Below are positions 12,167 through 57,161 of a stretch of DNA of 64,000 bases, piece by piece; within the stretch, counting starts at the first letter, position 1; each line of letters opens with the position of its first letter. Under the pieces are notes generated by a model. The model searched no databases, was not told the DNA's origin, and saw only the letters and a program-made list of their open reading frames with translations. The position numbers and the translations under genes were made by a program. Source of the stretch: Protonemura montana (lineage: Eukaryota > Arthropoda > Insecta > Plecoptera > Nemouridae); contig OX387607.1 in NCBI GenBank assembly GCA_947568835.1, forward strand, positions 18,875,277-18,939,276, written 5' to 3'.

Positions 12167-12268
12167 AGGAACTCTCAAGATGGTGGACTTGGCTTCAAAG
12201 TATATCCATGACAACCGCTATCCAGATTATTTGAGTTGAGTTGTTTGTCTGTCGGTCTGTTGCTGGTT

Positions 12269-32370: not shown

Positions 32371-32404
32371 TTCTAGTCGATCGTGGAAAATCGATCGATT
32401 TTAC

Positions 32405-34716: not shown

Positions 34717-37700
34717 ATGAGGGACGTAACGCGCCTTTGCTGCGCACTAGTGCTGCTCGCGGTGGTCGCGGTGGTCAACACTAGTTCCCTCGAAGTACGC
34801 CAGGCAATGTCGCCGACGGTCGCCGCTCTGCAATTCGGCGCTCGAGAGCGGAAGTCACGATGCAAGTACAAAAGGGAGGCGCCAGGACGCGACGAGCATG
34901 CGCGGAGAGGGTCATTTGATGTCACTCGTTACAACGCCATGATAGACGAGTCAAAGAACTGGCCCCCAGCGCAAGTCTTGAGCGAGGCGGCCGAGTTGAT
35001 GCACTCGTTGACGCAGTCGCAGACAGACACATCGTTTGTCGAAGTGATCGGCGTGCTTTTGTATAAACCGTATACGAGAGTGACATTAAGTTTCATTGTC
35101 AGCAACCAAGGTATCTTTGATCGACTTGTGTTTCACGCCCGAGAAAACCTTCTGGCACTTCCACTTCCCATCGGTAACGATTCTGTGGTTTGGGGATATA
35201 AATTTCAACTCGCAGTACGGAGGACCGACGACACGATGCAGGACCCAGTCGTCGCTTTCTGCTCGCCACGAGGCAAGACGTCAGAGTTGCAAGTAATCAC
35301 TCACCTAATTTCTCAAGACACAGAAAAACTGTTCGACGATTGTAACTTTGCGTTGGTAATTTCGAACGCGGGACTTCAAAACACAAAAATAGCAATCATA
35401 GCATTTGGCTTCAATTCTGTCATCCGACCAATGCCTTCTATTGGACATCAGATCCACAACAGTCGCGTGGTGGACGTGGCCATCGAGTCTGGCACCAGAC
35501 GAGAGCCTTCGGAAGACCAGCTGCTATCCATCTTCTTCAAGCCCTCACTGAACGGCAACACCACGAAGGGCTGCTCCTATTGGAGCAAGTCGCAGACCAA
35601 TTGGACGACCGACGGCTGCTGGGTCGACCATGAGAAGTCCCCAGATGTCTGCAAGTGCAACATGTCGAAGCACCTCGAGGAGGAAGCGACTGGCGGCCAG
35701 TATATTGTCTACGAATACTCGGACGTCTTCTTCAACAAGATGAGCCTCAAGTACCTGAAAGACCCCTTTAATTATTTTGACCCAACCGATTTCTATTTCT
35801 CTGAAGCGAGTGCCCTGATGCGCAACCTTACTTTGTTACCAGCGGATCATAAAACATTATATCAACTAAATGTGGTGGTCACTGTGACAATGAAAGCTAC
35901 TTATTGGAAACCCTTCACAGCCAGATCAATATTAACAGGATATTACATAAGAAGGCTGTACGAGGATGCTAAGAGCCTCTTACAATTGCCACTTCCATCA
36001 AGTGATGATATCGTTTTAACATACACCGGCTTTGCACTAATATCAATCCCGATTTCAAATTCTTCTCATCCTTACAGTCTTTCCTTTGTTTTAACAGATT
36101 TTCCTTTGAAAGTGAACCTCCTTACCCCCTCCCAGGGAGACGCTCTCAGCACAATCCAGGGCGAAGAGTTTGCATTCGCTCTAACTACATCCAGGTCGGT
36201 TGCTGAACAGAACAGTCAAGTCACCTTCATGATATCACAGGTTAATAAATACTTATTCAAGAACATTGAGAAATACGGCCGCTTCCAGGTGCACAACTTC
36301 CAAGTGGTCGACGTCACGTTGGTCACTCGCGTTGGAGTAAACATCAACGAAGATCAGTTCATCGACATCTGGTACCGGCCTTCGGTCTTCGACGCCAAGG
36401 ACGTGCGTCTGGGCTGCATGTATTGGAGCGACAAAGAATACGACTGGATTGACAAGGGATGCATCGTCCACGACAACGCCACGCCTAGAGGATGCCGATG
36501 CAACCTGTCGACTCACTTTGAAGACAACAGAAAGGGTGGACAATACGCAGTCTTCGAATATTCGGACGTCTCTCTAGACTACAGAAGAATAAAAAGCATA
36601 CTGTATGACACACTCTTACAGAAAGCAGACAACAGCAAGCAGGATTCAGGACTTCTGGCAATGAGCGCTTTTCTGCAAAATATGACCCAAATCGGGCACA
36701 TCGATAGACACAGTGCTTTATTGACAACTAAGATCGCGCTGCTTGCGTTGACAAACGGTGAGGGCGCTATGAAACGCAACGCAACGCTTCTGAAAACGCT
36801 GATGGAGGACATGCACGTGATTGTTCAACGTTGGGCTCATGACAGCGCTTTAACCGCTTCATACCTATTGTCGACTCGTCAATTCTTGTCGACACTTGTT
36901 GCCCTCGAAGCTCACGAAATGTTGTCAAATAAAGCAATCCGATCACAGACCTCGTTGTTAAAAGAAGCGTCTCTCAATTCATTTACTCTAGGCGTGCCGG
37001 ATCAACATAATGGCTCAAAGATAACCAAACTTAAACAAATCTTGTGGAGTTACGAGAGTGACGTGTCTGTCGAGCCGCAGTTATCGTTCAGTTTTCTGGC
37101 GGACTCCAGGGACAAAGTGCGCTTTGCAGTCATCGTGTATCCCGAAAACAAGGCGTTCCTGTCGCTCTCCCAATCTCTGCCAGCAATCTTCAGCTACCAC
37201 GTCCTGGATGTAGCGATCGTTCGCGACTTCAACGAAGGCATCTTACCGTCCTCTGACAGACTGGTCACCCTGCTGTACGTCTCGGACGGAGCAGAACGTG
37301 CCGCGGCCTCGACGGGGTGCGCCGGGTGGACGGGCACTGATTGGTCCACGGAGAGTTGCTGGCTGGAGACAGACAACGAACACGCGTGCACGTGCAACCT
37401 GTCGGCGCTTTCTGTCGGCACATTCCTGCCGGTGCTCATCTACGAGGCGATCGAGGTGGAGAACTTTTCGCCTAAAGGCTCGTTAAGCGCCCTCGACGTC
37501 CTCTACGTGGTCTCTTCGACAGCCTCACTGGTCGGCCTCTCGCTCATTGCCCTCACGGCGGCCGTCTTCCCCGCGTGGCGCGACGATGTCGGCCACAAGA
37601 TCCTCCTCCACCTGTCGCTGGCGCTGTTCGTCTACCAGACGCTGCGGGTCTACCGCGAGACTTTCCACGTGTACACGGCGTTGAACCGTGACCAGATGGC

Positions 37701-38337
37701 GACGTTCATCTCCTTCGCCGTGGTCACGCACTACTCGCGCCTTGCGCAATACGCGTGGATGCTGACCATGGCCGTGCTGCAGCTGCGTCGTCTTCTGACG
37801 GTGGTCGGCGCAGTGGACGTCCCACACTTGCTGTTCAAGGTGAGCGTGCTTGCTTGGGGCGTTCCACTCGTACCACTCGTAGCGCTGCTCTCCTGGGACA
37901 TCGACGCACACTTCGCCAGGCCCGACAAATTGACTCACTACGTGCTCTATCTGGTGCCTGGCGGCGTCGTCACCGGCGTCGTCATCTTCCTCTTCGTGGT
38001 CATCGTGGCCAGGATCTTCGCGTGCTGCGGATGGGGCAAGGTCAACGACCTGGGTCGACATGGAATCTCTCGCGCTAAGTTGACCGGCTGACAGATGGCC
38101 ACGACGATTCTGCTCTTCTTCCTGTTCGGGACTCCGACAATATTTGAGATGTTCAACGACATCTGGGGCCACAGCCGCACCCTGGATGTGCTCTTCAAGG
38201 TGTTCGATCCGGTGCGTGGTACCATCGTGTTCATCTTCTTCATCTTGTTGGACGGGTCAACGTTTGACATGTGGCGCCAGAAGGTGCGATCGCTGGCCAC
38301 GAGAGGCGCCACCAGGCAGGACTTTGAAATGCGGTGA
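34717..38337 (+). CDS. Adhesion-GPCR-like receptor 1 with three GPS-like modules; one in-frame TGA
   Basis: Plasma-membrane receptor by its layout. A signal peptide (LCCALVLLAVVAVV) is followed by a long extracellular part of about 900 residues with three repeated modules. Each ends in a GPS-like motif C-x-YW...W...C...C-x-C-N-[LM]-S: Cys at about residues 286, 567 and 868 (for example GCSYWS, TTDGCW, CKCNMS). The modules also share a VVDVA..VVDVT..VLDVA strand. Seven TM helices lie at about 926-1190 with VYRETFHVY after TM2 and FGTPTIFEMFND in TM6, matching receptor 2. The gene is one 1206-codon frame with a single TGA (38089-38091) between TM5 and TM6, where receptor 2 has an Arg codon. Without read-through the product has five TMs. 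The coding part is intronless. It may be a recent pseudogene, a recoded gene or carry a sequence error. Confidence 0.8.
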
Positions 38338-38837
38338 GAATGCGTAGGTTGCCAAGCTTAACTTTGAGTCTGGAGATTTTCTGTCAGCTGAGTCTTCTAA
38401 TTACTGTCTTATTGTTGTTATCAAGATAAAACTCTAACCTAACTTTTATCATCTATTACAATGTAAGTTAAGCCATATTATTTTTTAAATACCTACACAA
38501 AACATTTCTCTTTTGTAATGCTCGATTATAAAACAGTTGCAAGTTTCTCAGCAGCACTTGCAAGTGTTACGCCTAGTTCACATCACATCGCCTTAACAAC
38601 TTTTTGTGATTTTGTGATTTAAAAAAATTAACTGTTGCTTTGCCTTTATTGCGCATGCGTGTAACTAGACAATGCCTTTTTGAGCATTTTGACGAGCGGG
38701 ATAAAATCTCCTCGATCCATTGTTTAGACCGAACGTCGAGAGAATACCAAGAGGCTTTGTTTCTGTAATTGTCATTTGTTTTACTGTCATTTGTGTTGTA
38801 ATTATTTAATTGTAGAGGTTTCTTAAAAAGTACGGCT
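38338..38837. other. 3' flank of receptor 1
   Basis: No gene recognised. A minus-strand frame (38573-38908) has no motif. Possible polyadenylation signals are not distinctive. Confidence 0.35.
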
Positions 38838-38960
38838 GCAAGCGCCATCTGGTGGCACCTACCGTTACCACGTGTTGCCGGCCTCGTTTGCTCAGCAGCA
38901 AGCGCCATCTGGTGGCACCAACCGTTACCTCGTGTTGCCGGCCTCGTTTGCTCAGCAGCA
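38838..38960 (+). repeat. 60-bp direct duplication
   Basis: GCAAGCGCCATCTGGTGGCA through GCCTCGTTTGCTCAGCA is present twice at 60-bp spacing with two base changes. It includes AGCGCCATCTGGTGGC, a CTCF-like core (CGCCATCTGGTGGC). Confidence 0.8.
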
Positions 38961-39060
38961 AGTTTAACATTAGCGCTGGATCTCTAATTGTAACTTATAA
39001 ACTCGATGATATCGGTTATTGGTCATTTCTTACTATCATGATTTTACATTGTTGTAAACA

Positions 39061-39190
39061 TTATCTATTATCTATTATCTATTTTATAATATACATTAAA
39101 TATTATTATATATAATCTTGTATTATCTATGATCTATCACATATTATCTATTATGTATTATCTTTTATCAATTATCTATTCGATCTATTA
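39061..39190 (+). repeat. Degenerate (ATCTATT)n microsatellite
   Basis: TTATCTATTATCTATTATCT and variants over about 130 bp. Confidence 0.75.
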
Positions 39191-39279
39191 ATAAAAAAGC
39201 GCATGAGTGTGACTTTACTTCCCACAAAAACTCGAGTCATTTTGCGTTTCTACGGATTTTGAGATTTTCATTCGAAACT

Positions 39280-40800
39280 TCTTGGAACTTGTTGAAATTG
39301 TCGTAATCTTAGACTACAAAATATCGACCATGACTGCTATTTTCGACTTCCTCACCACCATACATACATCACTCGACCTAGGCGACCAGACTCTTAGACT
39401 ATTCTATGACCTCAGTAAAGCATTCGACACCATAGACCACCAACTGCACCTATCCAAACTACACTACCTAGGAATCCGAGGCGTAGCCAACAATTGGATC
39501 TCCTCATTCCTATCTCTTCGATCACAATCAGTGCAACTCAACCCCCTCTCCCCTGACGCTACCCCCATCAAATCCAGCCCTCTACAACTAAAACGAGGCG
39601 TACCACAAGGCTCCACCCTCTCCCCACTCCTCTTCCTACTCTATGTCAATGATCTCCCTAGCATGATCATCAAAGGACATCTTTTCCAATTTGCTGTCGA
39701 CACCAACCACCTAATTACCACCCCAAAGACTAACCCCCCTGACACTATCTCCCAAATAGCCAACCATCAAGCCTCAATCTTCCTTAACTACTGCCTCAAT
39801 AATAAGCTAACGATCCAACCCTCCAAATCGTCCCACATCCTATTCTACTCTGGACACAAACCACCCCTGACATCTCCCCTCATCAGAGTCAATCAACAAA
39901 TAGTACCCAGTACACCAACCACCAAATTCCTAGGGCTTTACATAACCCCTAACCTAGACTAGACTCCACACATCCCACACGTCATAATGGGCAAAACTAA
40001 AAGTGCATGCTTCCTCATCCGTCGACTAAAACGAATAGTCAGCCCACATATCCTAAAATTAGTTTACCATGCCCACCTACATTCCCATATCTCATACGGC
40101 CTCCTCTTCTGGGGTACATCTCCACAGGCCAAGCGCATCTTCATTTCTCAAAAACAAGCCATCCGCATAATGGCAGGTATCTCAAGGAAAAAATCCTGCA
40201 AACCCCACTTCCCCGCACTCAAAATCCTAACCCTTGCATCCTCCCTCATCCAAATCGCCTGCACCTACGAAGCCACCCCCAACAATTCCCCCTAAACTCT
40301 TCAAAGCATCCATACGCCACTAGAAACAGACACGAAATCCGATCAACCACCCACTCCCACTCCCTCTTCGAACACAGCCCACACTACCTTTGCACCAAAA
40401 TTCATAACCATCTCCCGACATTCATTACCGATTCGCCAACTCGCCCCATTTTCGACGCAAAACTCAAAGCATTCCTAGCCCAGAAGCCCTACTATTCTCT
40501 AGAGGAATATTTCAACAAACACAACTAAAACCTAAGGAAGAATACAAGATTGACACTCAGATCTCAAGATGGGTACCTTACCTTAACCATCTATACCTTT
40601 ATTACCTTATATATTCACCATTATTATTATTATTATTGTTATCTACCACTATTAATATTATTATTATTATAACTTTTATTATTCTTATTATCATTTCTTT
40701 TATTATACTATTATTTTATTATTATCACTATTATTTCTTTTATTACTTTTATTCCCAGGTATAAATCATTGTTAAAAAATAAATTGTTCTTTAGTTGAAT
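39280..40800 (+). mobile_element. 5'-truncated LINE with mutated RT active site
   Basis: Plus-strand RT sequence from about 39330: FYDLSKAFDTIDH (motif A), SFLSLRSQSVQL, LKRGVPQGSTLSPLLF (motif B), FQFAVDTNHL (motif C, with Val in place of the first catalytic Asp), TKFLGLYITPNLD then TAG, HISYGLLFWG, IRIMAGISRKKSCKPHF. A frameshift near 40290 leads into YATRNRHEIRS and KAFLAQKPYYSLEEYF before TAA at 40526. An AT-rich tail with TTATTATTATTATT and an end near 40800 follow. The endonuclease is missing. It is dead by active-site change, stop and frameshift. A remnant of the same family is at 61.6 kb. Confidence 0.9.
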
Positions 40801-41069
40801 TATTAGAAGAGCTTTTATTTCCCTGACTACCCGTGATGAAAATTCTAGTTACCATTTCTAGTGCAAGATGAAGCTAGACCTTACTAGACTAGACCTTGCC
40901 AGAAAATCGGGTTTTATGGCGCCTTGTAGCTACAACTGGGGTTGACTAGATTTCACTGGAGTTGCATGGAGCGCCATGGAAACAGCCAGACTTAGCTAGA
41001 CGGCATATGTTACTAGGTATCGTTAGGGATTAGTGGTACTAGACAGACTTAGCTTGCCTTAGCTAGCCT
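40801..41069. other. Flank with TAGACTT/TAGACC variants leading into the 10-bp array
   Basis: Contains loosely repeated CTAGAC words that resemble the start of the minisatellite. No gene. Confidence 0.45.
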
Positions 41070-41850
41070 AGACGTTGCTAGACGTTGCTAGACGTTGCTA
41101 GACGTTGCTAGACGTTGCTAGACGATGCTAGACGTTGCTAGACGTTGCTAGACGTTGCTAGACGTTGCTAGACGTTGCTAGACGTTGCTAGACGTTGCTA
41201 GACGGTGCTAGACGTTGCTAGACGATGCTAGACGTTGCTAGACGTTGCTAGACGTTGCTAGACGTTGCTAGACGATGCTAGACGTTGCTAGACGATGCTA
41301 GACGTTGCTAGACGTTGCTAGACGATGCTAGACGTTGCTAGACGTTGCTAGACGATGCTAGACGATGCTAGACGTTGCTAGACGTTGCTAGACGTTGCTA
41401 GACGATGCTAGACGTTGCTAGACGATGCTAGACGTTGCTAGACGTTGCTAGACGATGCTAGACGTTGCTAGAAGTTGCTAGACGTTGCTAGACGATGCTA
41501 GACGTTGCTAGAAGTTGCTAGACGATGCTAGACGTTGCTTGACGATGCTAGACGTTGCTAGACGTTGCTAGACGTTGCTAGACGTTGCTAGACGTTGCTA
41601 GAAGTTGCTAGACGTTGCTAGACGTTGCTAGAAGTTGCTAGACGTTGCTAGACGTTGCTAGACGATGCTAGACGTTGCTAGACGTTGCTAGACGTTGCTA
41701 GACGATGCTAGACGTTGCTTGACGATGCTAGACGTTGCTAGACGTTGCTAGACGTTGCTAGACGTTGCTAGACGTTGCTAGACGTTGCTAGACGTTGCTA
41801 GACGTTGCTAGACGTTGCTAGACGTTGCTAGACGTTGCTAGACGTTGCTA
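41070..41850 (+). repeat. 10-bp minisatellite (GACGTTGCTA), 78 units
   Basis: An exact 10-bp period over 780 bp with GACGATGCTA and GAAGTTGCTA variants and a few TTGCTTGACG units. Ends GACGTTGCTAGGGAAGG at 41850. Variant patterns recur in blocks, which suggests higher-order duplication. Confidence 0.97.
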
Positions 41851-41859
41851 GGGAAGGAT

Positions 41860-43390
41860 GGGCGTTGCTAGCTCTAGCTCCAAGATAAAACTCAATTTTT
41901 TAAAGGTAAAATAGTTTTTAACTAAACATTTAATATACCAATAAAAATAGCAACAATGTGATTTGTGGTATATCTATGTCGTAATGGAAATTTTTATTAA
42001 ATACCGAAAACATTAAGAAAGCATGTACTGGACTTACACTTCAAACATACCTATCTATTCTGTCTAAATTGTCCATATCAATTTTAAAATCAATCACAAA
42101 GCGGCTGTATGTAGCATACGTGCGAGAACTAGTGCACTTAACAATTTTCCTTTTGAAATTAGTGTTAATAATCTTAGTTCATCTCATATTTCTGAGGTGA
42201 CGTAGTTTTAACTCACTCACATAACACATTACAAAATATGATGGTTTTTAGACTCATGTCTACTTGATGTAAACTTAGCACAAGTTTTTAGAAAAACTAT
42301 TTCAACTGGGTTTTGAATGCTAAGTAAAGAACAAACTAAATTTCCCAACGTTTCGTAACTTGTACCTGTTACTTCTTCAAGGGTAAGAGCAGTCCTGACA
42401 ATTTTCCAATAACAAAAGAACCACATAAAATTATAACAATTACCTAGTTCGCGCATCCTAAATACATCTTAATAAAATAATCAGGGTCAATAACTAAAAA
42501 ACTAATGTATTATGTATTATCTGAAATAAGAACTCGAACACATTGGCGTTTTTTAACTAACTAATTATGTGTATGGAAAAAACGCCAATTTTTCGAGGTT
42601 GTCCTTACGTTATGTGATATAATTCATTACGTTTAGTTCTTAATCTACCGTCCAAATATTTTCTTCTGGATTCTTTGTGCTGATTTCTTCACTTTGTTGT
42701 TCGGAGGCCTCCTTTGCAGCGGCTTTGTCAGAGGCTTTATCTTGTTTTAAAATGTCTTGTATTTTGATGTCAGGCGCTCATTTATCTTCGCCAATTGATA
42801 TTCAATGTCGCAAGCTTTATATTTATAGTTTTGGAGAAATTTTGAAAATTGATATCGACCTGGTATTTCGATAATGTGTACGAATCACGAGCAAAATGTT
42901 GAAACAAATGTCAGAGCATATCATTTATCTTCCCAATTGAAACAAAATATTATTTACAATTGAACAAGGACATGAAAAGAGGTAGTTTATGATCCGTAGT
43001 TGACAGCTTGGCCGCCAATGTGGAGGCATTTTGTGCGTTTATTTATACGGCAGTGATCTTCGTTAAAACACCCTAGGTTTTGTATTCTTTGTCAGCTGAT
43101 TTAGAATACAAAACTGTATTTGAAACGTTTAGCAAATAAAGTAAATTTTTTTTTAGCATTTCAGACCCGGTTTGTTCAGTTTTTTTACAAACTATTGCTA
43201 AAATTAAAATAACATTTAGACATAAGTCTAAGAAGTCCAACTAAAATACTATTTTTATTACTTTACCACAAAAACTAGGAAACAAATACATACAATATTG
43301 CATTCGTACATGGAAATACGTTAACCTTCAGTGGGGATCGACATGGCTTGGTCACCTTGTTTTCCCGGACTTTACCTTTAACAGATTTAA
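41860..43390. other. No gene recognised; one shared interspersed repeat
   Basis: AT-rich. The 42236-42345 repeat is shared with 6.25 kb. Other frames (42229-42456 minus, 42677-42874 plus) show no motif. Confidence 0.35.
42236..42345 (+). repeat. Interspersed repeat shared with 6246-6356
   Basis: Same order and strand as the 6.25-kb copy (TTTTTAGACTCATGTCTACT, TTTTGAATGCTAAGTAAAG, TAAATTTCCCA). Origin unknown. Confidence 0.65.
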
Positions 43391-43399
43391 GGGTCAGCG

Positions 43400-43417
43400 T
43401 CCCCCCCCCCCCCCCCC
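43400..43417. repeat. Poly-C run
   Basis: An uninterrupted run of about 17 C in GCGTC..CTCCC. Length may be unreliable in assembly. Confidence 0.8.
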
Positions 43418-43496
43418 TCCCTAAATTGCCGGAGCCAAATCTCGTACAAAGATGGATTCTGATGACGAGCCTTCAAGAGCATCCGCTTTCCCCTTC

Positions 43497-43530
<34 letters not shown>

Positions 43531-44285
43531 TTTCACAACTTTGACATGCTTTTATTTATAAATGCTATCGGATGTTGTTATTTTATTTGAATATTGCTAA
43601 GGTTAGCCTTAATTTCTTTGGAGGTTTTTGGCAATGGTATTACCGCTTGTCCCGGCAGATTATTCCATAGACCTACTCCCTCTGCGGCTAAACAGTACTT
43701 CCCGATGTCGGTTCTTGGTTTTAACTGTTTTATATTGTGAAGGTGATCTTGACGGGATAAATATGACGGCGGTTGAAGGAGCAGGTTGACGTCCTCTCAT
43801 CCAGGTTCATTTATATACGCTCGGAATATGGCTATGACTCGTGATCTATTTCGCCGTTCCCTCAGATTTTACCAGTTCATGTCACGAACTAGCTGTGTTG
43901 GTCCGGGGGTTCTAGCGAAGCTGTTGCACACATATCGAGCTGATCTCCGTTGTACCATGTCTAAGCGGTGGATGTTTGCAGCTGTGTGGGGGCTCCAGAC
44001 ACTTGTACAGTACTCTAGCTGGGGTCGTATTAGAGTAAGATATTATGCTATTTCTTTTGCTCTCTTTGTTGCGCCTTTCAAGTTTCTCATCACAAAGTGC
44101 ATTGTTTTACAGGATTTCTTTACTGTGGCATCTACATGCGTATTCCATAGGAGATTGTCTGATAATAGAATTCCCAAGTACTTTGTGTTGTTTACTGGTT
44201 TGATGTCCTTGGAGTTAAATGTGTAATTGTACTCAACTCTTCTTCTTCTTCTGCTTGTTTTGAGGAGAGAGTACGATGTTTCCAA
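43497..44285 (-). mobile_element. LINE 3' fragment, broken
   Basis: Minus strand reads NTKYLGILLSDNLLWNTHVD and NLKGATKRAKEIA, then stops, then RPQLEYCTSVWSPHTAANIH, RLDMVQRRSARYVCN and, near the end, LAAEGVGLWNNLPGQAV. This is the C-terminal part of a jockey-like RT ORF. It ends in a (TAAA)n-type tail (TTTATTTATTTATT on the plus strand at 43500-43528). At least two in-frame stops. Confidence 0.85.
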
Positions 44286-44873
44286 GAAAATTATCGCGAG
44301 TCCTTGACATTGTTTTCGACCTTGCTATCCAAACATTATACCCCAGATGGATCTAAAACATTAAAAACACCTGTCAGGTTTTGTTGAATGTGATAAAATA
44401 GTCGCTAGATTAACCTCGCTTCGTGGATTATGGAACACGGCAGTTAATCGTTTATTGTCCGGGAAATTACAATCGGTTCTCAGACGCATTATAAAATGCT
44501 ATACAAGGTGGAAAAAAAATGTCTGAGCAATGCATGTCACATCTTAGAATATATTCGGTTGTTTGGATGGTCTTTGTCGAAGTCTAAACATGTTTGCCAC
44601 TTTTCGGTCTTGAGCTTGGTGAAGCAAGCTCCTTGCTCTATAATATGCTCACCTTGTCGTCCAGCTCTTGTAAAAGGGGAGGGTAAGCAGACTCCGTTGT
44701 CCGGGTTTGCTGGGTAGCTGAGGTATTAGCGCCCAACGATATTGCTGGAAGAAATAAGTTTAATTACAAAAGCAATTTAAGTAGACAGATAAAATTTGAC
44801 AACAAGAAAAGTGAATTTTAAGAATGTCAGACGTATGGCTTGAACAACATTGAGGATTTCTTCAAGTGGCTGC
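44286..44873. other. No gene recognised
   Basis: Nothing supported. Frames here lack motifs. Confidence 0.35.
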
Positions 44874-45140
44874 TTAGTTGCTTGGTTGCTTGAATTTTGT
44901 TCCAATAGCTGAATTGTTGGCTCGTTCCAGCTCTGCCTCCAAAAATGATCTTTTTCTTTCTGCTTTGTGGCAGATCTGACAGGGTTCCGGTGGCAGTACG
45001 GGTACTGTAAGTTCTGAACCTTGTGTTTCGAAAGTAGCTGCCCCACTGGTGCTGGTGGCAGGGGCGGGTTGTTTCGTGGCGTTGTCAAGCTTACGCTTTT
45101 TAATGGTTTCGCTCATCACTTCACGGAGATGGTCTTCGGT
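44874..45140 (-). CDS. Unassigned hydrophilic exon-like ORF
   Basis: On the minus strand an acceptor-like TTAATTAAG is followed by an open frame KTNTEDHLREVMSETIKKRK, LDNATKQPAPATSTSGAA, then LPPEPCQICHKAERKRSF and a short charged helix LEAELERANNS before TAA. The frame is biased and hydrophilic, with one C-x-x-C pair. I do not recognise a family. It could be the last exon of a small gene or part of a transposon ORF. Nothing shows that it is expressed. Confidence 0.25.
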   Translation of the reverse strand, partial: TEDHLREVMSETIKKRKLDNATKQPAPATSTSGAATFETQGSELTVPVLPPEPCQICHKAERKRSFLEAELERANNSAIGTKFKQPSN

Positions 45141-45546
45141 GTTGGTCTTCTTAATTAATATAAAATTAAAATCGAATGACCATAACATACTCTCAAACTA
45201 ATACATGTTAGTAGAGACGAAAGTGTAAATGGAAATTATCTGACTACCATTCGCCATCTTTCCTCCGAGGGGGTGGTCCTAGCCTTGTTGCACAATGCCG
45301 ACAGTAAAACAGCTGATCGCGGGGTGCAGTCAAGTGGGCGACAACATGGCCGCTCATTCAAGCAAACGTCATGAAAGTCTGGCTCCGCATTCATTGGCTC
45401 TGCCGACGCTGCGCCAGGAGGGAAGTCACGCGTTGTTGCAACAATCGCATGTGGCATGGCATCAGGCATTGGCTCTGTGGGATCGAGTCACAATTAAAAG
45501 TTGGTTCCAAGTTTGAAGCTAGAAAATATTTCTTGTACTTTAACCT
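45141..45546. other. No gene supported
   Basis: Open frames at 45236-45469 (minus) and 45295-45516 (plus) overlap each other and have no motif. Confidence 0.3.
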
Positions 45547-46274
45547 TTGAGTGTGCAGGTTCTAGGTAGAGACAGAACGTTAATGTCAAACCGTTGAGTG
45601 TGCAGGTTCTAGGTAGAGACAGAACGTTAATGTTAAACCGTTGAGTGTGCAGGTTCTAGGTAGAGACAGAACTTTAATGTTAAACCGTTGAGTGTGCAGG
45701 TTCTAGGTAGAGACAGAACGTTAATGTTAAACCGTTGAGTGTGCAGGTTCTAGGTAGAGACAGAACGTTAATGTTAAACCGTTGAGTGTGCAGGTTCTAG
45801 GTAGAGACAGTACGTTAATGTTAAACCGTTGAGTGTGCAGGTTCTAGGTAGAGACAGAACGTTAATGTAAAACCGTTGAGTGTGCAGGTTCTAGGTAGAG
45901 ACAGAACATTAATGTTAAACTGTTGAGTGTGCAGGTTCTAGGTAGAGACAGAACGTTGATGTTAAACCGTTGAGTGTGCAGGTTCTAGGTAGAGACAGAA
46001 CGTTAATGTTAAACCGTTGAGTGTGCAGGTTCTAGGTAGAGACAGTACGTTAATGTTAAACCGTTGAGTGTGCAGGTTCTAGGTAGAGACAGTACGTTAA
46101 TGTTAAACCGTTGAGTGTGCAGGTTCTAGGTAGAGACAGAACGTTAATGTTAAACCGTTGAGTGTGCAGGTTCTAGGTAGAGGCAAAACGTTAATGTTAA
46201 ACCGTTGAGTGTGCAGGTTCTAGGTAGAGGCAAAACGTTAATGTTAAACCGTTGAGTGTGCAGGTTCTAGGTAA
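45547..46274 (+). repeat. 47-bp minisatellite (about 15.5 units)
   Basis: Unit: GTTGAGTGTGCAGGTTCTAG, GTAGAGACAGAACGTTAATG, TTAAACC. Units are almost identical, with AGAGGCAAAACG variants in the last two. Confidence 0.97.
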
Positions 46275-46599
46275 TTGATAGCTCCCTCGGACACCTACCA
46301 ATAATATACTCAATAGAGGTTGGTGTTGGCCAACACATGGATGGGATTACAAATTAACAAAATATATTTATGGATTTACTGTACTTTTCTTGAGGAAGAA
46401 AATGTGGTTGGCATTTGTTGAAGCCGTAAAAGTTGGAATGCGTTATGGAAAGACATAGGTCCCTCTGGAATTAATGCCGGTAAAGTAACTAACCTATTTC
46501 CACAGCGTTTTTATAAATAGCATGCATAAAATCAACGTTTAGTGAACCTACTGTAAAAGAGGTCACCAACGTGAATGAGTGGACGTTCTGTCCTATTTC

Positions 46600-46825
46600 C
46601 TGTATCGCGTCGCGTTGCTTTGTTTAGTTTCTAATTGCACAAATTATTTTTCTTTATCGGCAATGTGATTGCTAGAAATAGGGGGTCATTTTTACCGTCT
46701 GCATTGTGGCATTTTTTGTCGTCGGGGTTTGAAGTTCATTGGGGAGATCTTTCAATTGATTTGTTTCGTGTTATTTGTAGGTCCGCATCACTGTTACATT
46801 GAAAAGCATCACTTCTTGAACTTCG
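46600..46825 (+). repeat. Interspersed repeat shared with 27378-27597
   Basis: Second copy of the 220-bp block, same orientation. A 5S-derived SINE follows within about 15 bp. Confidence 0.75.
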
Positions 46826-46834
46826 CTTAGTTAG

Positions 46835-47375
46835 TGGATGACGATGAGGATAACGATTAACCTAATGTAGCCTAGAAAAGTGAAGGGGAAACCTGGTGCC
46901 GGCACGTAGCCTACTCCTGTCGAAGACCAAGGAGACCACCGGCTTAACGTCCCTTCCGAAGGACGGTACAATGCGAACAACAGGATTCCTCCACAAATCT
47001 ATGCTGTCGAGAGGTTGATAAGCAAGGCGAGTAAAGTTGCTGTACTAACTTTCATCCCTCCAACCTCTCTCCCGAACAGAACTGGTCATGTGTATGATCT
47101 TCACCCATCCAATACCTGACCCAGCGCAGTGTTGCTTAACTTTCATCCCTCCAACCTCTCTCCCGGACAGAACTGGTCATGTGTAAGTCGGTCACCCATC
47201 CAATACCTGACCCAGCGCAGTGTTGCTTAACTTTCATCCCTCCAACCTCTCTCCCGAACAGAACTGGTCATGTGTATGATGGTCACCCATCCAATACCTG
47301 ACCCAGAGCAGTGTTGCTCAACTTCTCTGATCTCACGAGAACCGGTGTTTCCAACACGCCAAACCATTCGGGCAA
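46835..47375 (-). repeat. 5S-derived SINE with three tandem heads
   Basis: Minus strand: 5S-like unit from 47375 (CGAATGGTTTGGCGTGTTGG, GTGAGATCA, AAGTTGAGCAACACTG), then two more 5S/spacer units, then the SINE body to about 46850 (CCTTCGGAAGGGACGTTAAG, CCGGTGGTCTCCTTGGTC). Near-identical in layout to 9535-10255 but with fewer heads. Confidence 0.82.
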
Positions 47376-47753
47376 TTTAATAGAAGTTTTTACAAAGTTT
47401 TAAGATGTAGGTGTTCATGTGAAGTTGAATTCACATGCGGCAAATTGCAAACACAGATAATGGGTTTTTAAGAATTAGAACAATAAGAAGAATAAAATAA
47501 GAATAACAGAACAGAATAAGAATTAGAATAAGACAATAATAATTTATTATTTAGGCTGGAAATTGTTTTAATTTGCACAGTATTTTTGATCAAGAGCAAA
47601 CCTAACATTTATTTACCGATTTAATTGGGTTTCAATGGATAATTATATCAGAAATAGGCTGGCAAGGAAAGGTTTTGACACTTTGGAATCACAAATCTGA
47701 ATTAAAGTAGAAAAAAAAACTTTTTGTCAGTGTAACGTATTTCAGGCGTGTGT
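47376..47753 (+). repeat. Copy of the 400-bp repeat family
   Basis: Shows GCGGCAAATTGCAAACACAG, GATTTAATTGGGTTT, GGCTGGCAAGGAAAGGTTTT, GACAC and AAATCTGAATTAAAGTAGAA in the order seen at 2.5-3.4 kb. The 46-bp array interrupts it. Confidence 0.6.
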
Positions 47754-48171
47754 TACAGTTGTGTTAGCCTAACCTTGCCACAACCTGGTGGACTCTGACT
47801 ACAGTTGTGTTAGCCTTACCTTGCCACAACCTGGTGGACTCTGACTACAGTTGTGTCAGCCTTACCTTGCCACAACCTGGTGGACTCTGACTACAGTTGT
47901 GTTAGCCTTACCTTGCCACAACCTGGTGGACTCTGACTACAGTTGTGTTAGCCTTACCTTGCCACAACCTGGTGGACTCTGACTACAGTTGTGTTAGCCT
48001 TACCTTGCCACAACCTGGTGGAACCTGACTACAGTTGTGTTAGCCTTACCTTGCCACAACCTGGTGGACTCTGACTACAGTTGTGTTAGCCTTACCTTGC
48101 CACAACCTGGTGGACTCTGACTACAGTTGTGTTAGCCTTACCTTGCCACAACCTGGTGGACTCTGACTACA
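47754..48171 (+). repeat. 46-bp minisatellite (about 9 units)
   Basis: Unit: TACAGTTGTGTTAGCCTTAC, CTTGCCACAACCTGGTGGAC, TCTGAC, near-identical across the array. It is inserted within the 400-bp repeat family. Confidence 0.96.
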
Positions 48172-48179
48172 CATTGCCA

Positions 48180-48900
48180 ACTTTAGAATGCAAAATAAAG
48201 CCAGTCTTCACCGGGAAGTTTGAAATTAACTAGAAAATTATGACCAAACAATGCATCATGCACTTAAATTCTTTGTGGATTTATCATTTAAAAGCATTTT
48301 GTTCATTTAGCATTTAAGTTCTAAGGAGGATTTTAAGAACTCAGCAATCTTTTGACAGTTATCGTTATTTGTTTTTTAATTAAAAATCTTGCCCACCTTG
48401 AAATTCACAAAGTTTTCACAATACAGTGACTCTCAGTGGCAGTTGCGGCAAATTTAAAATACATATCAAACATTAAATAGACACGAGTTCTACACAAGTT
48501 CACTGCGTAGTTGGCTAAAAATAGTTTTTATTTGCACATTATTTGTGAGCTCGACAAAACGTGACATTTATACGGCGATTTGTTTGGGTTTTTTAATTGA
48601 TCATTTCAACTTAAAGAGGCCGGCAAGAAATTATTTTGACACATATTAAACGGGATCACTCAACTGCATGCATAGGAACTTACTTTTTGTAAATTCAAAG
48701 TCTCTAGGCGTGCGTTTAATTAAGCTTAAAGTAATATTTATTGGAAATTCAACCTGTACTTAGTTACTTTATCACTCAAAGAAATATTTGAAACATTTTT
48801 GCCTGCAATATTTTGACAGCTGCTGTATTTTTTTTTTTTGAACGCATCATCTTGCCCACCATGAAATTGAAAAAGTTTCCACATTGCAGTGACATTAGTG
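48180..48900 (+). repeat. Two further copies of the 400-bp repeat family
   Basis: From 48340 and again from about 48815: TTTTGACAG, TTGCCCACC, CTTGAAATT/ATGAAATTG, TTTCCACA, AGTGACTCTCAGTGGCA. Between them ATACGGCGATTTGTTTGGGT and GGCCGGCAAGAAATTATTTT lie in the usual order. Confidence 0.6.
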
Positions 48901-48999
48901 ATTGACTAATTAAATGAAGTAATAATTTATAAATTGATTGGCGGTTGGATAACTGACACATAAAACACAGTTGGTACGACTGTTTAGTTCGCCATCTGA

Positions 49000-49259
49000 A
49001 GAGGTATTAACCTGGTGACAGTATCTTCACATGAGTGCAATCAATTGCAGCAATGACCCGAGGGGAACGGTTTTTCTGGTACATACCTCAGCCGGAGGCT
49101 TGCTACGACCAAGCGCACGCTGGGTAGGATTACGCTAGCAGTACTCGTCTGCACCACGATAAAGTCCCCAACAGATACGATCATGCACCCAGAGGAATAA
49201 CAAAGTATGGCCAACAGGAGCTGGTTGATGGGGAAGTCTGAGCAGTTCCTTCCTGTCAT
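49000..49259 (-). pseudogene. PIF/Harbinger (HARBI1-like) transposase fragment
   Basis: Minus strand: INQLLLAILCYSSGCMIVSV, GDFIVVQTSTASVILPSVRL and EKPFP resemble the helix-turn-helix part of HARBI1-like transposases. After a frameshift the next frame gives VIAAIDCTHVKILSPG, the first catalytic Asp motif (IDCTH). A stop follows, and the second D and E are missing. Flanked by the 400-bp repeats and the hAT element. Not active. Confidence 0.7.
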
Positions 49260-49398
49260 GGATTGATTAGAGATGGGTATTGGGTTGAATTATAGCAATA
49301 AGTTGAAAAATAGGGATGCAATGCACATGAGGATTTTGCCTCATAACTGAGGGGGAAAAAATAGCAAACTAACCTATCAGTAGCAAACTCCGAGTGGG

Positions 49399-49406
49399 GT
49401 TTAATC
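49399..49406. repeat. 8-bp target-site duplication, left (GTTTAATC)
   Basis: Immediately before the left TIR of the hAT element; perfect match to 51105-51112. Confidence 0.9.
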
Positions 49407-51104
49407 CAGGGACCCGAACCGAAATGATTAAAGGTTCTGGTTCCGGTTCCGGTTCCTAATTTTTTCAAATTAGGGTTCTGGTTCTGGTTCCGGTTTTACG
49501 TTTTTAAAGGTTCCGGTTTCGGTTCCGGTTCCATATTGTGAAGAGGGGTTCCGGTTCCGGTTCCGGTTCCTAATTTTCTCAAATAAGGGTTCTGATTCCG
49601 GCTTTAATTATAAAAAGGTTCCGGTTCCACTTGATAAATAAAGCGTTATTTTTTTAAATTTTGCTGTTGTACAGGTTCAAGTTTTAGTGGTTTTTAGTGA
49701 CACTTAGTTTTGTTTTTCCATCTGCCAGGGACAGGTCTTTTTCCTCACATTGGGTTTCAAAGCACACGAAGCCAGTTGCATAAAAGATAGGGGTGTAACG
49801 AAGTCGTAATAATTTTTTTGATTCAATTTCTCTGCACTAGTAGAGTTACAGAGTACTACTATGTACGGAGTAAAAAAGGCAGGCTAGTCCATCTCTATAA
49901 GACAAAGCATGCATGACAAGGGGTTAGTTTGTTTGAGGCTTTCAAGTAAAAAATGTAAAGATATGGATTTACGGTTACACTCTGATGGGGACAGGCAAAG
50001 GGTTATTTAACACTAGACATAAAATTAACTATAAACTGGATAAACCAGCTTTTCAAAATTATAAAAGGGGGCCCACCTATGCGGGTTGTGAGCTTTATAG
50101 GGCATTGCCGGCGGATCTTCAAATCAAAAAGGACAAGAAATTCAAAATTGTGCTCAAGAATTTTCTACTTGAAAAATGTTTTTATACTGTAAAAGATTTT
50201 TTATTGTAAAAGGTAGAGACAATGAAAAATTGTAGTGTAAATGTAAATATTATAGTACCTAAAAATGTTGCTAAAGATACATAAGACGTATATGTTGTTT
50301 AATTGTTGGTCACCTAAATGTAATACTTTGAACTTTCCAAATGGCACGATGTGTTTAAACGGAATAAAATTCATTATTATTATTATTATTATTGTAACCA
50401 CGATTTCGCCAACACTGAGCTAAAGTCTCAACGAGTATGATTTGCATCCCTCCTTTATGAGGTCTCTTATGAGTTAAGACACATCTTACGGACATTATGA
50501 AACAGGACAAATTCCAGAAATAGCGAAAACTCGACCAAACTGGCTGGTCGCTCGGATCTGTTCGTTATACAATCTAACATACGCTAGCATATTATGAAAC
50601 AAGCTATTACCCGCGCTGGCCCACGAGTGAGTCGAGTCGGCAGGATACGTGGATTATAGCTTATCAGATATAAAACAAAGTAGCTGGCTGCTAGGGCACC
50701 ACCAAAGAACGCTTCTCAGAGCGGTGTGATCATTTATAAAGAAATACTCTAGAAAATGCCTTGTGTTTTTCCCAAACAAAATCGTGGATACAAGATGAGT
50801 CAATGGATGTTTTCGGAACAAACCAGTGAAACATTTTTTTTTCGTGTGGAAAAATTAAAAACAAAAAAGTTTTAAACATAATGAGCAAATAATTTTATTC
50901 TGAATTTCTGAAATCTCAATATAACTTCGGAACCTTTATGGAACCTTTAAGGAACCGAAAAGAACCCATGATTTAATAAGGGTTCCGGTTCCGGTTCCGG
51001 TTCTTGGAAATTAATAATAACGGTTCTGGTTCCGGTTTCGGTTCCAAGAAAATACGGGTTTTTTCGGGTTCCGGTTCCGGTTTCGGTTCCGGTTCGGGTC
51101 CCTG
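49407..51104. mobile_element. Non-autonomous hAT element with GGTTCC subterminal repeats
   Basis: Terminal inverted repeats CAGGGACCCGAACCG and CGGTTCGGGTCCCTG are perfect over 15 bp. The element is 1698 bp and is flanked by identical 8-bp sequences GTTTAATC, the hAT-type target-site duplication. Both ends carry clusters of GGTTCC (49430-49620 and 50930-51095), all in one direction. No transposase is coded. The interior holds a LINE 3' piece that presumably inserted later or was carried along. The perfect TSD and TIRs suggest fairly recent movement. Confidence 0.92.
49985..50395 (+). mobile_element. LINE 3' fragment nested in the hAT element
   Basis: A frame of 74 codons (49985-50209) reads NTRHKINYKLDKPAFQNYKR, GPTYAGCELYRALPADLQI and KIVLKNFLLEKCFYT, the typical C-terminal end of jockey-like LINE ORF2. 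A (TTA)n tail at 50374-50395 follows. The RT core is missing. This shows nested insertion. Confidence 0.75.
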
Positions 51105-51112
51105 GTTTAATC
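51105..51112. repeat. 8-bp target-site duplication, right (GTTTAATC)
   Basis: Directly after the right TIR; identical to the left copy at 49399. Confidence 0.9.
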
Positions 51113-52430
51113 TCTTCAAGTAGGTGAAAGAATTTAGGCTAGGTCAAGCGAAATCACACATTGAACTCGTCGTCATTGCACACATCAAAATGGTTAATTC
51201 TAGGCCGTACATTTTTTTGCACGTCTGCCCAAATTCATAAATACTTCGTCTTCTGAATCCGAATTGGCAATTTCACGTCCAAAATCAGCCAAGTTTTCTA
51301 AATATTTTTGTTTATTTATGTATCAAGAGCCAATCAACCTTCGGTTGGATATTTAACTGCCATCCAGCCTTCCAGTTAAATCATTTTCCAGTTAGGCCAT
51401 AGTTCTCTGCCTCGCAAAGTTAACCAGACATTGTAAAAACCGGTCCTAAGAAGGACATGTATATATAAGTTTCCAGCGATGCCGGCGATCCTGTTTTAGA
51501 CGTGAAGCATCGGCTGATTACTAGTGAATTACTAGTAAACAAATTTACAAGGATAAGATAAACTCTGAATATTCTCTTTGTATCGTAGTCACCCAAAAAA
51601 TATCTACAGTTTCATGATTTTATGCTCTAATAATTAATTGATTTAAATTTGAATTGATAAGGATATAAGGACCTGGATTGTTATTCAATTTATTAAAAAT
51701 TTTTAAAGGAAGATGATTTCATTTTTATTAACATTAAATAAATAACATCTAAACAATGAGATACATCGAACTTCGCCGAGCTCGGTTGAAACCACTTCAT
51801 ATAGGAACACGTTTAAATTTTAATCACTAAACAATTCAAAGTAAAAAGTAAAACAAAACAAAACATTCCATTCAAACAAAATAAAACCAAACATTAAGTG
51901 AACGATCCTACATTTCTACGCCAGCTAGCAATGAAAGAAATTAAGTACAATTTCTAAAACCATTGTAGACGCCCTTTAATTAGCACATGTAGATTAAATT
52001 GTACCAAATGAATAGAAATTATTAAAACAGCAATTGAAGTATTGAAGTTTTAGCCACTGAGTGAAACCAGTGCATCAACCGCATTGCAAATGACATGAAA
52101 AAACGGGTTCAATTGGGAGAAACAATTCAAAAACATTAATTACACCAGAAATCAAAAAAACACACATGCTTGATTTTGATGAGGTTTTTACAGTATAAAC
52201 AGTATCTTAAATGTTTTCCTTGAGAAAGAAAGTTCGAAAGCAAAAGAAATTAACAAAAACAAGAAAGTTACCACATATATTTCATGAATGCTAGGAATAT
52301 TTGAAAAAGACGAGACCATAATGGTGTCTTTAAGACAACGGTGTATGCAATTCTATCAAACAAAGTTGTAAAATAATCACAAATCAAAGTTTAAATTTAT
52401 TGATACTTATTAAGCAAGTTCGGCTTCATT
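51113..52430. other. 3' flank of receptor 2, no gene recognised
   Basis: AT-rich. Possible 3'UTR of the minus-strand receptor gene. An 91-codon minus-strand frame at 52433-52708 overlaps the receptor C-terminus in another frame and is hydrophilic; I treat it as a shadow or a frameshifted tail. Confidence 0.35.
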
Positions 52431-52667
52431 GCTCAGGCAGGTGCATGCTCTTCTAAACAAACTGACTTGTCTTCTTCAGGAAGTGAATTATATCCATGAT
52501 GGTGCTGGGTACGCTCATCTTCCTGGTGGTAGGGTTCGTGATGAAACGAATCACCTTCGCCAGCTAATTTGCCACACCTAAGTAGGCAAGACTTATCTTC
52601 TATTTTAAGTAAATTCCCGTTTTGGTTACAATTGTCTAAAGTGCATGCTGCCAAATCACCTAGAAAT

Positions 52668-55600
52668 CTAGCATAGCTCGAATTCATCACAGAGTCTGTT
52701 AAGATCACTCCGATTCAGACGTTTTCGAACTGTTTTCATATCCTTCCTCGGTGCAAACCTTTCAGACTTTAAAACGGCGTAACTTTTCAGTCCTTTGGTT
52801 TGCTTATCCCAGTTCTGTCGGGAATTGTCGTCAAAAACAATGAAAAACAGAAACAACACGAAGCCTTGGATTGGATCCAGCACTTTGGTGATGTAGCCCA
52901 ATGCCTCGTTGTGTCCGCCGAAGTCGTTAAACATCTCAAACACGGTCGGAATTCCGAACAAAAAGAACATTAGTATCACAGTTTTTAATCGCCGCATAAT
53001 CAAATCTTTGTCAGATACGTTGTGCCTCTGTAAATCTTTCTCTTTGCCACAGCCGAAGTTGTTAGTAATTTTACCCAGTATAGCAACGAGCAAGCCAATA
53101 TTTAAAACAGTAATAACAGTACCGGGCACCAAATAAAATACAAGGTGGGTGAGTTTGTTCGGGCCGCAGAAGTGATCCTTCTGATCCCACAGGAGCAAAA
53201 CAATCAGTGGAACAAACGGGAGGCCCCAAGTTATAAGACTAACCTTAAGCAATAAGTGTGAGACAACTTTAGCTCCGACCACTCCAGAAAATCGCTTGTA
53301 TTGCAGGACTGACATGGCAAGTCCCCAGCTAAAATGCGCCAGTCGGGTGTATTGAACGCACACGGTGAAAATAATTAACGGTATGTTCGTGTGATTGTTG
53401 TCGGCATAGATTAGGTGGGTTTCACGATACATTGTTAACGTGAGGTAAAGAAACGATGAGGCCGCTAGGTTCATCAAAATCCTGTTACTGAGATCTTTGC
53501 GCCATTTTGAAAACATTACTGTTGTCAGAAAAATGATAATGAAGCCAAACTGTGACAAACAACCTCCAATCAGATACAAAATGGACGGCGTGCTGTATTC
53601 GGTGACAAACGTGAAGTTAGGAAGGTCTGTGTATTCGTACATCACGACGCGAGTGAGAGTCCGGTTGATCAGCTCGCAGCGACAGAAGTCGACTCCGTCC
53701 AACGTGACCATCCAGCAGACGTCGGTGGTCCAACCGTTCTGTGAGTCATCCCATGATGCGCACGATATTTCCACGTAGCTAGAAGGATTCTCCGATGGTC
53801 GAAAGTATAGGTCCATCAGGGTACTGTTAATCTTCTCGTAATCACGTGAGACTCCATACTCTAGTCTGTCTGAACTTTTGTACACTTCAATTTGTCGGAA
53901 GTTGAATACGGAACTGGAGGTCATAGTTGTTGGAAAAGGTGATGCGTTCAGGGGATACAATATAAATATCAAGCGGTGGTTGCAAAGAACTTCCGGCGTA
54001 AGTTTTGTGCAGGCAAATGTTAGATTTTTATTCATAACATTTTTGGAATTTCTGCTGTTTATTATTGTTTTTAAGGTCTCCTTTTTGTAACCATGAATTT
54101 GAAAACCCGTGGGCATGTCATGAGAATTTACTACAGTCTTGTAGTAACCAATTGCCATCACCGTAATGTATGATACAATTGAAACATCGTCTGTCCCTTT
54201 GGAGGTGAGAACAGCGTTGGAGAATAAATATTTAGCCACTGCGGTGCTCTTTGCACTCCACGACCCTGGTATACCGTAGTTTACGCTAACCATATTTAAA
54301 TTGTTAATAAGATACTTGTCAAAAATAGTCTAAAGGTCATTTAAAATGTCATTAATCTGTAAATGGTGTTTAACTAAATGATTTTTATCAACCGCTATTA
54401 TGCGCAAGTAAACGCCTAGCGTCTTGCAGACCAAACTTTCGTTGGTCGACATCAGGGAGGCGTTGTGTATGAGGGCCGCACCTTGGCTGAAGATGCTGCT
54501 ACCATCTGAAAGTGACTGTGAGCCCAGACGAAGAAATATTTCGTTGTCGAAGACCACCGTGGAGTAGGTGTAAGCAAGGTACAGTCCCCCCGTCCTAGAC
54601 TGATTGAAATTTACTGACAAACTACAATTACATACGTACAAGCCGTTGACTAAAAAACTACTACAGCCAGTGGTCGTCCATGCATTTTGTGTTGGACTCC
54701 AATAGGCACATTCGTGCTTGCAAGGGAATGCCGTTTGGTCAAGGTAGATTTCTACGAACTGTTCGGCTTCTTTGCCAGTCGTTTTAGGCACGAAGACGAG
54801 GTCGACCATGCGACTGGCTATTATATCGTAGCCCACATTAGGAAGTGGTCGTAAGAAGTTGTTATTCAGTGGATAGACAACAAACACACACTTTTCATTC
54901 TGGGCTGTCACCGAATCTGAGATGTGGACAGCGAACAATGCTTTCGGAGTGAAAAATTTCGTCGGGTCGAAGACATCTTTAAGGAATTGCACGGCTGGGT
55001 TCAGATTAATGTCGTACCAAAAGTTACTGGCGTGGTCAAGTGTGTTTTCCTCGTAGCACACGGCGTCGCAGCCGTCGTTGATGTTGCCTGCTGTTCTGCT
55101 GGTCTCGCACGGAAAATTGGTAACAATATATCTGATGTCATCCAAGATTTGTTTCTTTATTGTCTCATTTAGTCGAACAGTGTTTTCGAAATCGCTTAAC
55201 ACAATTTTACCTAACTCCATGATAGCGTTTTGAACAACTGTTGGCCTTCCAATGTAAGTTCGCCACTTATTCAGGTTGAATATTGATTGATATAAATATC
55301 CAAAGTTCACTATCGCAGTAGTATGTTTATCAACAATGCGCACAACCAGATGCTCGTATTTGTACACAACGTATTGTCCTCTTGTTCTTGACTCGTTGAA
55401 ATGAGCTGACATGTTGCAAGTGCAAACGCCGCGGTAGAGGCTGGGGTTGGGAGCGCAGCCGACACTCGTCCATTTGTCGAGAACTTCGCTCCAGTAAGCG
55501 CATCCATATTCTAGACCTTTCAAATCTAACAAATCTTGCATGGAATACAGGTGCACTAGTTGGTCTTGTGGTTGACGTTCACTCTGTTTCGGACCAAGCA

Positions 55601-57161
55601 CGATATCTAGCACTCGGAATCTTTTTATTTCATGACCATCTACTTCTCCGGTTGGTTTAAAGAACTTGTCTGGAGGATAAAGAAGAAATGCGTACCGGTC
55701 GTTTTGAGCTAACACTGACCGTGAAAACATAAAAGAGTAATTTACCATGAAGTGAAAAAGAATGTTGAAATCGATAATTTCTGAAGACCTGAAGTATTCA
55801 ATCGAATTCGTTGCCGAAGAGAAGGCGTATGCTATTAACGGGTCTCCAGTGTAGTTTTTCAGGTTTAATATGAACGAAGCCATCAGATTGGTGCTGCGAC
55901 CGATTATGTTTTCCTGTCCTTTCGGCTCTACTGACGCTAATATCTTCCCAACATTCCCCAAAAGAGACGCGGCTGTTTCTTCCTGAAGCAAACCCGAGTC
56001 AAATTGCAACAAGTTGTATAAATATTTCGAAATAAAAGTGTCCAATGACGGCAAGCTTTCTTGGGCAAGTTCTTCGATCAACCCTTCATAACGTTTTAGC
56101 TGGACCAGGTCGGACACGTCATGGACATCGATAACTCCATCAATGAACTCAGAAGCTTGATAAACATCATCGACATAATCAAACACAATAAAAGTTTCAA
56201 ATTCCTGGAAGTTTCTCTTGTCGCAGTGGCAAATGATTCTATTTCTTTCGAATAATTCTTTATACACGAGGCAATCTTTATCTGTCCAGTTGCCATCGAC
56301 TTCGCTCCAATACGCACAGCCATATTTCACAGTAAACTTGTTTGGCGAGGGAAATCTTTTCAAAGACAGTGAGTCGATTAAATTAGGATACGAACAGTGA
56401 ACTACAGTTTCTTTGTTGAAGTGATCGCTTCTAGGCACCCGAACCACATCAACTACGTTGAAGCCTCTCAGGGGATAGCCGACAACAGGCAACGGTCTTA
56501 GCGGCGAAATGTTGTCGGAGTAAATAAGAAACAGAACACGGTCTTCTCCGTTGACGAAACAATGCGCAATTATTCTTAATGTGTTCGACTCGAATACACC
56601 TAGCTCTTTGAAGGTTGTGAAGTCGTTATTAAAATCAAACATGCCATAATCATCAAACTCATCGTCAATGGTGTACTGTACTAATGTTACGGATGGTAAT
56701 GATTTGACCACGAAAAGATCGACTGTGTCCAACCTGGAGGTTTTATCAAGATAATCAATGGTTACCTGAGCTACTGCGTTCACAGCTTCCGTTTCTGCTG
56801 CACTTACCGGAAACTGACTCGCTGGGATATGGGTGAGTGACTCGTAAACTGCACATAATGTATTTAGTACTTTATGACCTGTTTCCTGTCCAAGTAGCTG
56901 CTGTATTTCAGTCAAAGATTGTGAAAGTGCTGCTATTTTGTTTCGGGTGCGTTCATCTCCAGTTACCAAATGATGTTCTTGTTCCTGGGAGTTGGTATCC
57001 GACCTCTTCTCTCTTACGGTTTTGTTGGTGCTGATATAATCTTGAGTCACACTATCTTCTTCGAGACCTTCTACGGATGAAGACATATTAGCCGGAGGCA
57101 GTATAATATGTGCTTGTAGCAGAAACATGATCAAGATGCCCCTGTAAAACATCTTGATCAT
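52668..57161 (-). CDS. Adhesion-GPCR-like receptor 2 with four GPS-like modules; one in-frame TAG
   Basis: Plasma-membrane receptor by layout, paralogue of receptor 1, converging on it. Start at 57161 with a signal peptide (GILIMFLLQAHIILPPA). The frame runs 1497 codons to 52668 with one TAG (54332-54330, codon 944); the 12 codons after it and the next ATG stay in frame. Four GPS-like modules: Cys at about residues 282, 554, 818 (YGCAYWS, YGCAYWS, HECAYWS) and, after the TAG, 1134 (SCASWDD). Module ends read CHCDKR, CTCNMS, CNCSLS and CRCELI; the usual His-Leu-Ser/Thr cleavage site is absent. Seven TM helices at about 1185-1420 with MYRETHLIYA, KLTHLVFYLVP and FFLFGIPTVFEMFND. If the TAG is read, a secreted 943-residue ectodomain results. 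A possible 5'UTR acceptor (TTTCTTGTCAG) lies about 43 nt before the ATG. Intronless otherwise. Confidence 0.82.

Follow-up and report, generated by a model that had tools for sequence, protein, structure and literature searches.

Serial GAIN-type modules without a cleavage site in class-B receptors of Protonemura montana, probable members of an expanded family derived from adhesion GPCRs

Adhesion G protein-coupled receptors (GPCRs) are understood to carry one GAIN domain, a latch that in most cases cuts itself and keeps a tethered agonist concealed. This domain is the extracellular element of nearly all of these receptors, and the parts of the consortium review that deal with it make no mention of several GAIN domains in one receptor (PMC13197933). 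Here we analyze a window of 64,000 nucleotides from Protonemura montana (G000:C5:18875277-18939276, in a genome assembly of 258.5 Mb and 34 contigs), in which two long single-frame genes, A and B, each encode a chain of three or four related GAIN-type modules followed by one class-B seven-transmembrane (7TM) domain. In this they differ from BAI2, BAI3 and E5, which carry one GAIN domain each. The likeness to BAI2, BAI3 and the cleavage-deficient E5 lies in the uncut GAIN that the same review describes for them (PMC13197933). Lineage-specific class-B expansions include the adhesion and methuselah-like GPCRs of octopus, some of which are expressed in suckers and skin, but the account of these mentions GPS together with extra leucine-rich repeat or Death domains and not serial GPS (PMC6408891, as far as its relevant parts go). 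GAIN/GPS also occurs outside adhesion GPCRs, in polycystin-1/REJ proteins (PMC13197933, in the parts concerned); polycystin-1, however, has 11 transmembrane segments (PMC9672506, likewise), and in A and B no 11-segment channel-like part was found, as a single 7tm_2-type domain is followed by the end of the frame.

The two genes are convergent, with approximately 14 kb between them, and both start with a hydrophobic, signal-peptide-like stretch (judged by eye, without formal prediction). Three GPS motifs in A and four in B precede one 7TM domain in each:

34717..38337, forward strand: gene A, start codon at 34717, 1206 codons up to the last stop
34786..35751, forward strand: A module 1 (A1), GPS at 35572-35658 ending CKC-NMS
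35752..36594, forward strand: A module 2 (A2), GPS at 36415-36501 ending CRC-NLS; modelled as a GAIN fold; Pfam GPS 24.3 bits
36595..37479, forward strand: A module 3 (A3), membrane-proximal, GPS at 37318-37395 ending CTC-NLS, then TFLPVLIYEA
37480..38286, forward strand: A 7TM domain of class-B/adhesion type (7tm_2; phmmer ADGRG1/G2/D1)
57161..52668, reverse strand: gene B, start codon at 57161, 1497 codons up to the last stop
56154..57074, reverse strand: B module 1 (B1), GPS at 56223-56318 ending CHC-DKR
55326..56153, reverse strand: B module 2 (B2), GPS at 55416-55502 ending CTC-NMS
54534..55325, reverse strand: B module 3 (B3), GPS at 54624-54710 ending CNC-SLS
53592..54533, reverse strand: B module 4 (B4), membrane-proximal, GPS at 53676-53762 ending CRC-ELI, then TLTRVVMYEY
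52782..53591, reverse strand: B 7TM domain of adhesion type (phmmer ADGRG6/G2/F1)

A preliminary description of this DNA, made from the letters, had proposed three and four GPS-like modules per receptor, read as a serial array of non-cleaving GAIN/GPS modules on a 7TM receptor, and our analysis supports this reading. In searches with hidden Markov models, Pfam GPS scored 31.3 bits in A and 35.4 bits in the first part of B, above its cut-off of 22.5, and 7tm_2 (cut-off 20.6) was identified in A with 31 bits, or 36.2 bits when the part upstream of an in-frame stop (see below) was scanned alone. Scanned singly against Pfam GPS, A2 alone passed the cut-off; A1, B1, B2 and B3 matched at E 0.00085-0.034 and B4 at E 0.065, and A3 gave no match. 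The 7TM domain of B had no 7tm_2 match of its own; phmmer against solved structures placed it closest to ADGRG6 (2.7e-10 over 320 residues) and ADGRG2 (3.9e-10), and that of A to ADGRG1 (3e-4) and ADGRG2 (0.005). BLASTP related the seven module cores to each other, with 19 of 21 pairs at E < 0.001, from A1/A2 (3e-27) and B2/B3 (6e-25) down to A3/B3 (0.003) and A3/B1 (0.016), at identities of 15-32%; the alignment of A with B covers 763 columns at 29% identity (1e-87). Chance likeness of the modules is excluded by these values. Structure prediction of A2 gave a GAIN fold, and the distal modules are predicted as a GAIN-B beta-sandwich with the GPS at its end, the GAIN domains of BAI2 and BAI3 being among the best structural matches. 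The model of B4 with the 7TM domain matched mostly pentameric channels (residues ~247-352), and was not used to assign the latter. Apart from a weak match to DUF7291, Pfam revealed no other type of ectodomain at E up to 1.

The closest described relatives are adhesion GPCRs like ADGRG6, ADGRG2 and ADGRG1, the best solved structures for the two 7TM domains, with which A and B share the class-B 7TM and a GAIN-like module with the GPS Cys/Trp frame immediately before the first transmembrane segment (TM1), the arrangement characteristic of adhesion GPCRs. They differ in having three to four modules instead of one and a single open frame, and in lacking His-Leu-Ser/Thr, the tethered-agonist (TIA) Phe, W6.53 and C3.29. 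The suggestion of a possibly undescribed family agrees with our finding no serial GPS/GAIN layout in the literature searched (automatic annotations of such proteins may exist); the family probably derives from known adhesion GPCRs. The one literature match for "two GPS" (PMC5548486, in the part concerned) refers to two GPS mutants and not to a serial layout.

None of the seven GPS copies in A and B has H-L-S/T after CxCx. Four of them (A1, A2, A3 and B2) have N-[LM]-S, a sequon, directly after the last Cys, so the earlier remark that most copies carry this replacement is borne out, and the other three (B1, B3, B4) end in C-DKR, C-SLS and C-ELI. Among the family members read, the cleavage triad is found in 0 of 71 GPS copies and N-x-S/T directly after the last Cys in 26, in a count that leaves out L029, L032 and L054 (the loci of B, L059 and L010) and L012 and L028 (those of L008 and L004; L numbers denote loci of this genome). 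As the same genome also encodes receptors with CxCxHL-T (L002-L005), the loss of the triad is a property of the multi-module clade.

The apparatus that switches adhesion GPCRs is altered as well. C3.29 pairs with a Cys of extracellular loop 2 (ECL2) in a disulfide. With positions taken from an alignment of B with ADGRG6, C3.29 is present in 0 of 34 and the toggle W6.53 in 0 of 33 multi-module rows that have a residue there, and the ECL2 Cys is retained in 26 of 33; the 35 multi-module rows include the fragments L040, L041 and L058, and the alignment omits only L029, so that L032, L054, L012 and L028 are counted twice. Single-GPS relatives have W6.53, C3.29 and the ECL2 Cys in 22 of 23 rows, the exception (L011) not being aligned as a receptor. 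The roles of the TxFxxLM tethered agonist and of the W6.53 toggle are treated in the 2026 consortium review (PMC13197933, in the sections concerned). None of the 26 pattern-matched rows has Phe at agonist position 3 of the strand that follows the last GPS (5 of 31 strands were not matched by the pattern, L043 and L060 reading T and Q there by eye; L032, L041, L054 and L058 were omitted), and 25 of the 26 have [RK]-[VIM]-x-x-Y-E, A having a form of its own. In a tree built with L032, L040, L041, L054, L058, L011, L012 and L028 left out, a branch with full support (100/100) separates the multi-module clade, with 30 rows, from the other 20 rows, although the single-GPS group is not one clade (s_L024 lies outside) and long branches were flagged. 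No module read in this clade has the cleavage triad, and as far as the alignments show the clade has neither C3.29 nor the W6.53 toggle nor the tethered-agonist Phe.

The single-GPS receptors form a second large family in the same genome (e.g. L008, L013-L023, L025-L027), with class-B 7TM domains and single frames of ~370-740 codons in those read. Like the multi-module receptors they have a single open frame and many copies; their GPS mostly ends CRCSGK-YF, the triad is absent in 16 of 22 GPS copies read, and the 7TM is mostly 29-37% identical to that of B. They differ in having one GPS, in keeping W6.53, C3.29 and the ECL2 Cys, and in their position outside the multi-module clade.

A search of the genome with the 7TM domain of B returned at least 123 matches, of which the best 51, A and B included, have E up to 5.4e-58. 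For 33 of these 51 the match is free of stops and the surrounding frame runs uninterrupted for 1200 codons or more, many of these frames having 1450-1600 codons and some 1797-2266. Complete reading of four uninterrupted members gave four modules, as in B, for L009, L010 and L059 and three, as in A, for L060 (its second module ends CRF and not CxC, and its slice begins within the signal peptide), in place of the usual single GAIN/GPS. Open frames of 1797-2266 codons, at C4:5631013, C4:2372798, C5:19234787 and C2:5623791, have room for five or more modules, and more than four per protein are possible there. Members are both clustered (four within ~100 kb at C5 7.57-7.67 Mb) and scattered over many contigs, and several contain stops of differing kinds. 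Viral and prokaryotic contig collections scanned with the A/B 7TM alignment contained no relatives, as expected for an animal gene.

Ratios of nonsynonymous to synonymous substitution (dN/dS) over 14 pairs, not all independent, are 0.17-0.55, and the alignments thus show purifying selection on the proteins as a whole. Between B and L059 modules 1-4 have 0.51, 0.33, 0.46 and 0.26 and the 7TM 0.19; between A and L060 there is no gradient (modules 0.33, 0.33 and 0.26, 7TM 0.32). Of eight further pairs, two had no usable value in one region, and in the other six the proximal module exceeds the 7TM in five and equals it in one.

Taken together, A and B probably belong to a family of single-exon receptors that arose from adhesion GPCRs and expanded in this lineage, and we consider it quite probable that these are uncut receptors with serial GAIN modules and without a tethered agonist. 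Such a receptor would be made as one uncut chain; fly CIRL shows that an adhesion GPCR can function without being cut (PMC5548486, in the part that bears on this). The distal modules may serve as ligand- or partner-binding and spacer units, and a binding event would reach the 7TM by mechanical or allosteric transmission through the intact proximal GAIN, whose last strand, shared as [RK]-[VIM]-x-x-Y-E by most members, would act as the relay, with no Stachel peptide set free. The high copy number, single frames, clustering and broken copies are reminiscent of chemoreceptor or recognition families, and many copies with birth-and-death turnover would fit recognition of varied ligands, such as environmental chemicals, prey, mates or self.

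Stacked uncut GAIN modules could alternatively be force-bearing spacers of latrophilin-type mechanosensors and not a variable recognition surface. Adhesion GPCRs are known as mechanosensors, and fly CIRL with a proteolysis-resistant GPS works in mechanosensory neurons (PMC13197933 and PMC5548486, in their relevant parts). The even selection across the modules of A and L060 agrees with such a role, but the outermost module of B and L059 evolves fastest, and dozens of copies occur here, with recent duplicates and several broken ones. Known mechanosensory adhesion GPCRs are few. We regard mechanosensing as a less likely explanation.

It could also be supposed that the modules still cleave, with other residues, e.g. 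a downstream His-Phe/Leu, replacing His-Leu-Ser/Thr. The GPS Cys and Trp frame is indeed kept in nearly all copies, and several have H-[FL] 4-5 residues after the last Cys; where readable, however, the residue behind this pair is Glu, Asp, Asn or Leu and not Ser/Thr, and many copies lack the pair. With the triad in none of the 71 copies and CxCxHL-T retained in canonical relatives of the same genome, hidden cleavage appears very improbable.

Both genes contain one in-frame stop, a point absent from the preliminary description, in otherwise continuous frames of more than 1200 codons:

38089-38091, forward strand: TGA in A, between TM5 and TM6 (intracellular loop 3, by alignment to B)
54330-54332, reverse strand: TAG in B, between modules 3 and 4 (within the N-terminal part of module 4 as cut)

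The frames therefore extend to their 3' ends, 38337 in A and 52668 in B, only if the stop is read over. Short introns over the stops were considered and rejected: 32 in-frame GT-AG stretches in A and 23 in B span them, all without a GTAA/GTGA donor, and L059 and L060 are open through the corresponding regions. If the stops were read through on purpose, B would yield a soluble ectodomain of three modules and, in lesser amount, the full receptor. The single stop per gene, and the region of B downstream of it that is at least as constrained as the region upstream (dN/dS 0.26 versus 0.44, against L059), would suit such a scheme, but full-length L059 and L060 are open throughout, and in other members the 7TM match is interrupted by TAG, TGA or TAA, as expected when nonsense mutations strike a birth-and-death family at random. 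Programmed readthrough thus seems highly improbable. The stops may stem from an error in the assembly, from an allele that still segregates or from a recent loss; A and B are two broken copies of a living family. That they are nothing more than pseudogenes left by an ordinary adhesion GPCR, with duplications introduced in assembly, as a stop in both genes might suggest, is scarcely credible given module cores only 15-32% identical, far from assembly duplicates, and stop-free relatives of the same layout at four other loci.

The surroundings of the receptors contain reverse transcriptase fragments, a THAP domain and integrase fragments (21513-22262, 39213-39959, 32377-32916, 62831-63530; the rve match is below cut-off). 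TTAGG is an arthropod-type telomere repeat, and ~50 copies (unit CTAAC) lie at 17092-17342, ~2 Mb from the end of the 20.9-Mb contig. Satellite arrays of 91-92 bp (9736-10197, 14181-15379, 47046-47324) have eight 5S rRNA family matches in or beside them. Two arrays of one 52-bp unit (652-1381, 4105-4575) have tRNA-family matches at their edges, and this unit is perhaps a tRNA-derived satellite. One 41-bp unit forms three separate arrays (6986-7409, 11489-12167, 15744-16608), one of them inverted, and one 73-bp unit forms two in opposite orientation (18284-19081, 30785-31599).

It is possible, though we propose it tentatively, that this family represents a new animal recognition- or chemoreceptor superfamily that arose from adhesion GPCRs, in which GAIN modules in tandem, never cut, provide variable repeats for ligand binding, and an intact GAIN drives the 7TM without a tethered agonist, W6.53 or the disulfide between TM3 and ECL2. 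A clade that lacks the triad, the agonist Phe and the toggle together, with purifying selection maintained on its 7TM in many copies, is a natural experiment on signalling by uncut adhesion GPCRs, and it would show that the GAIN fold can be used as a repeat unit, like immunoglobulin or cadherin domains.

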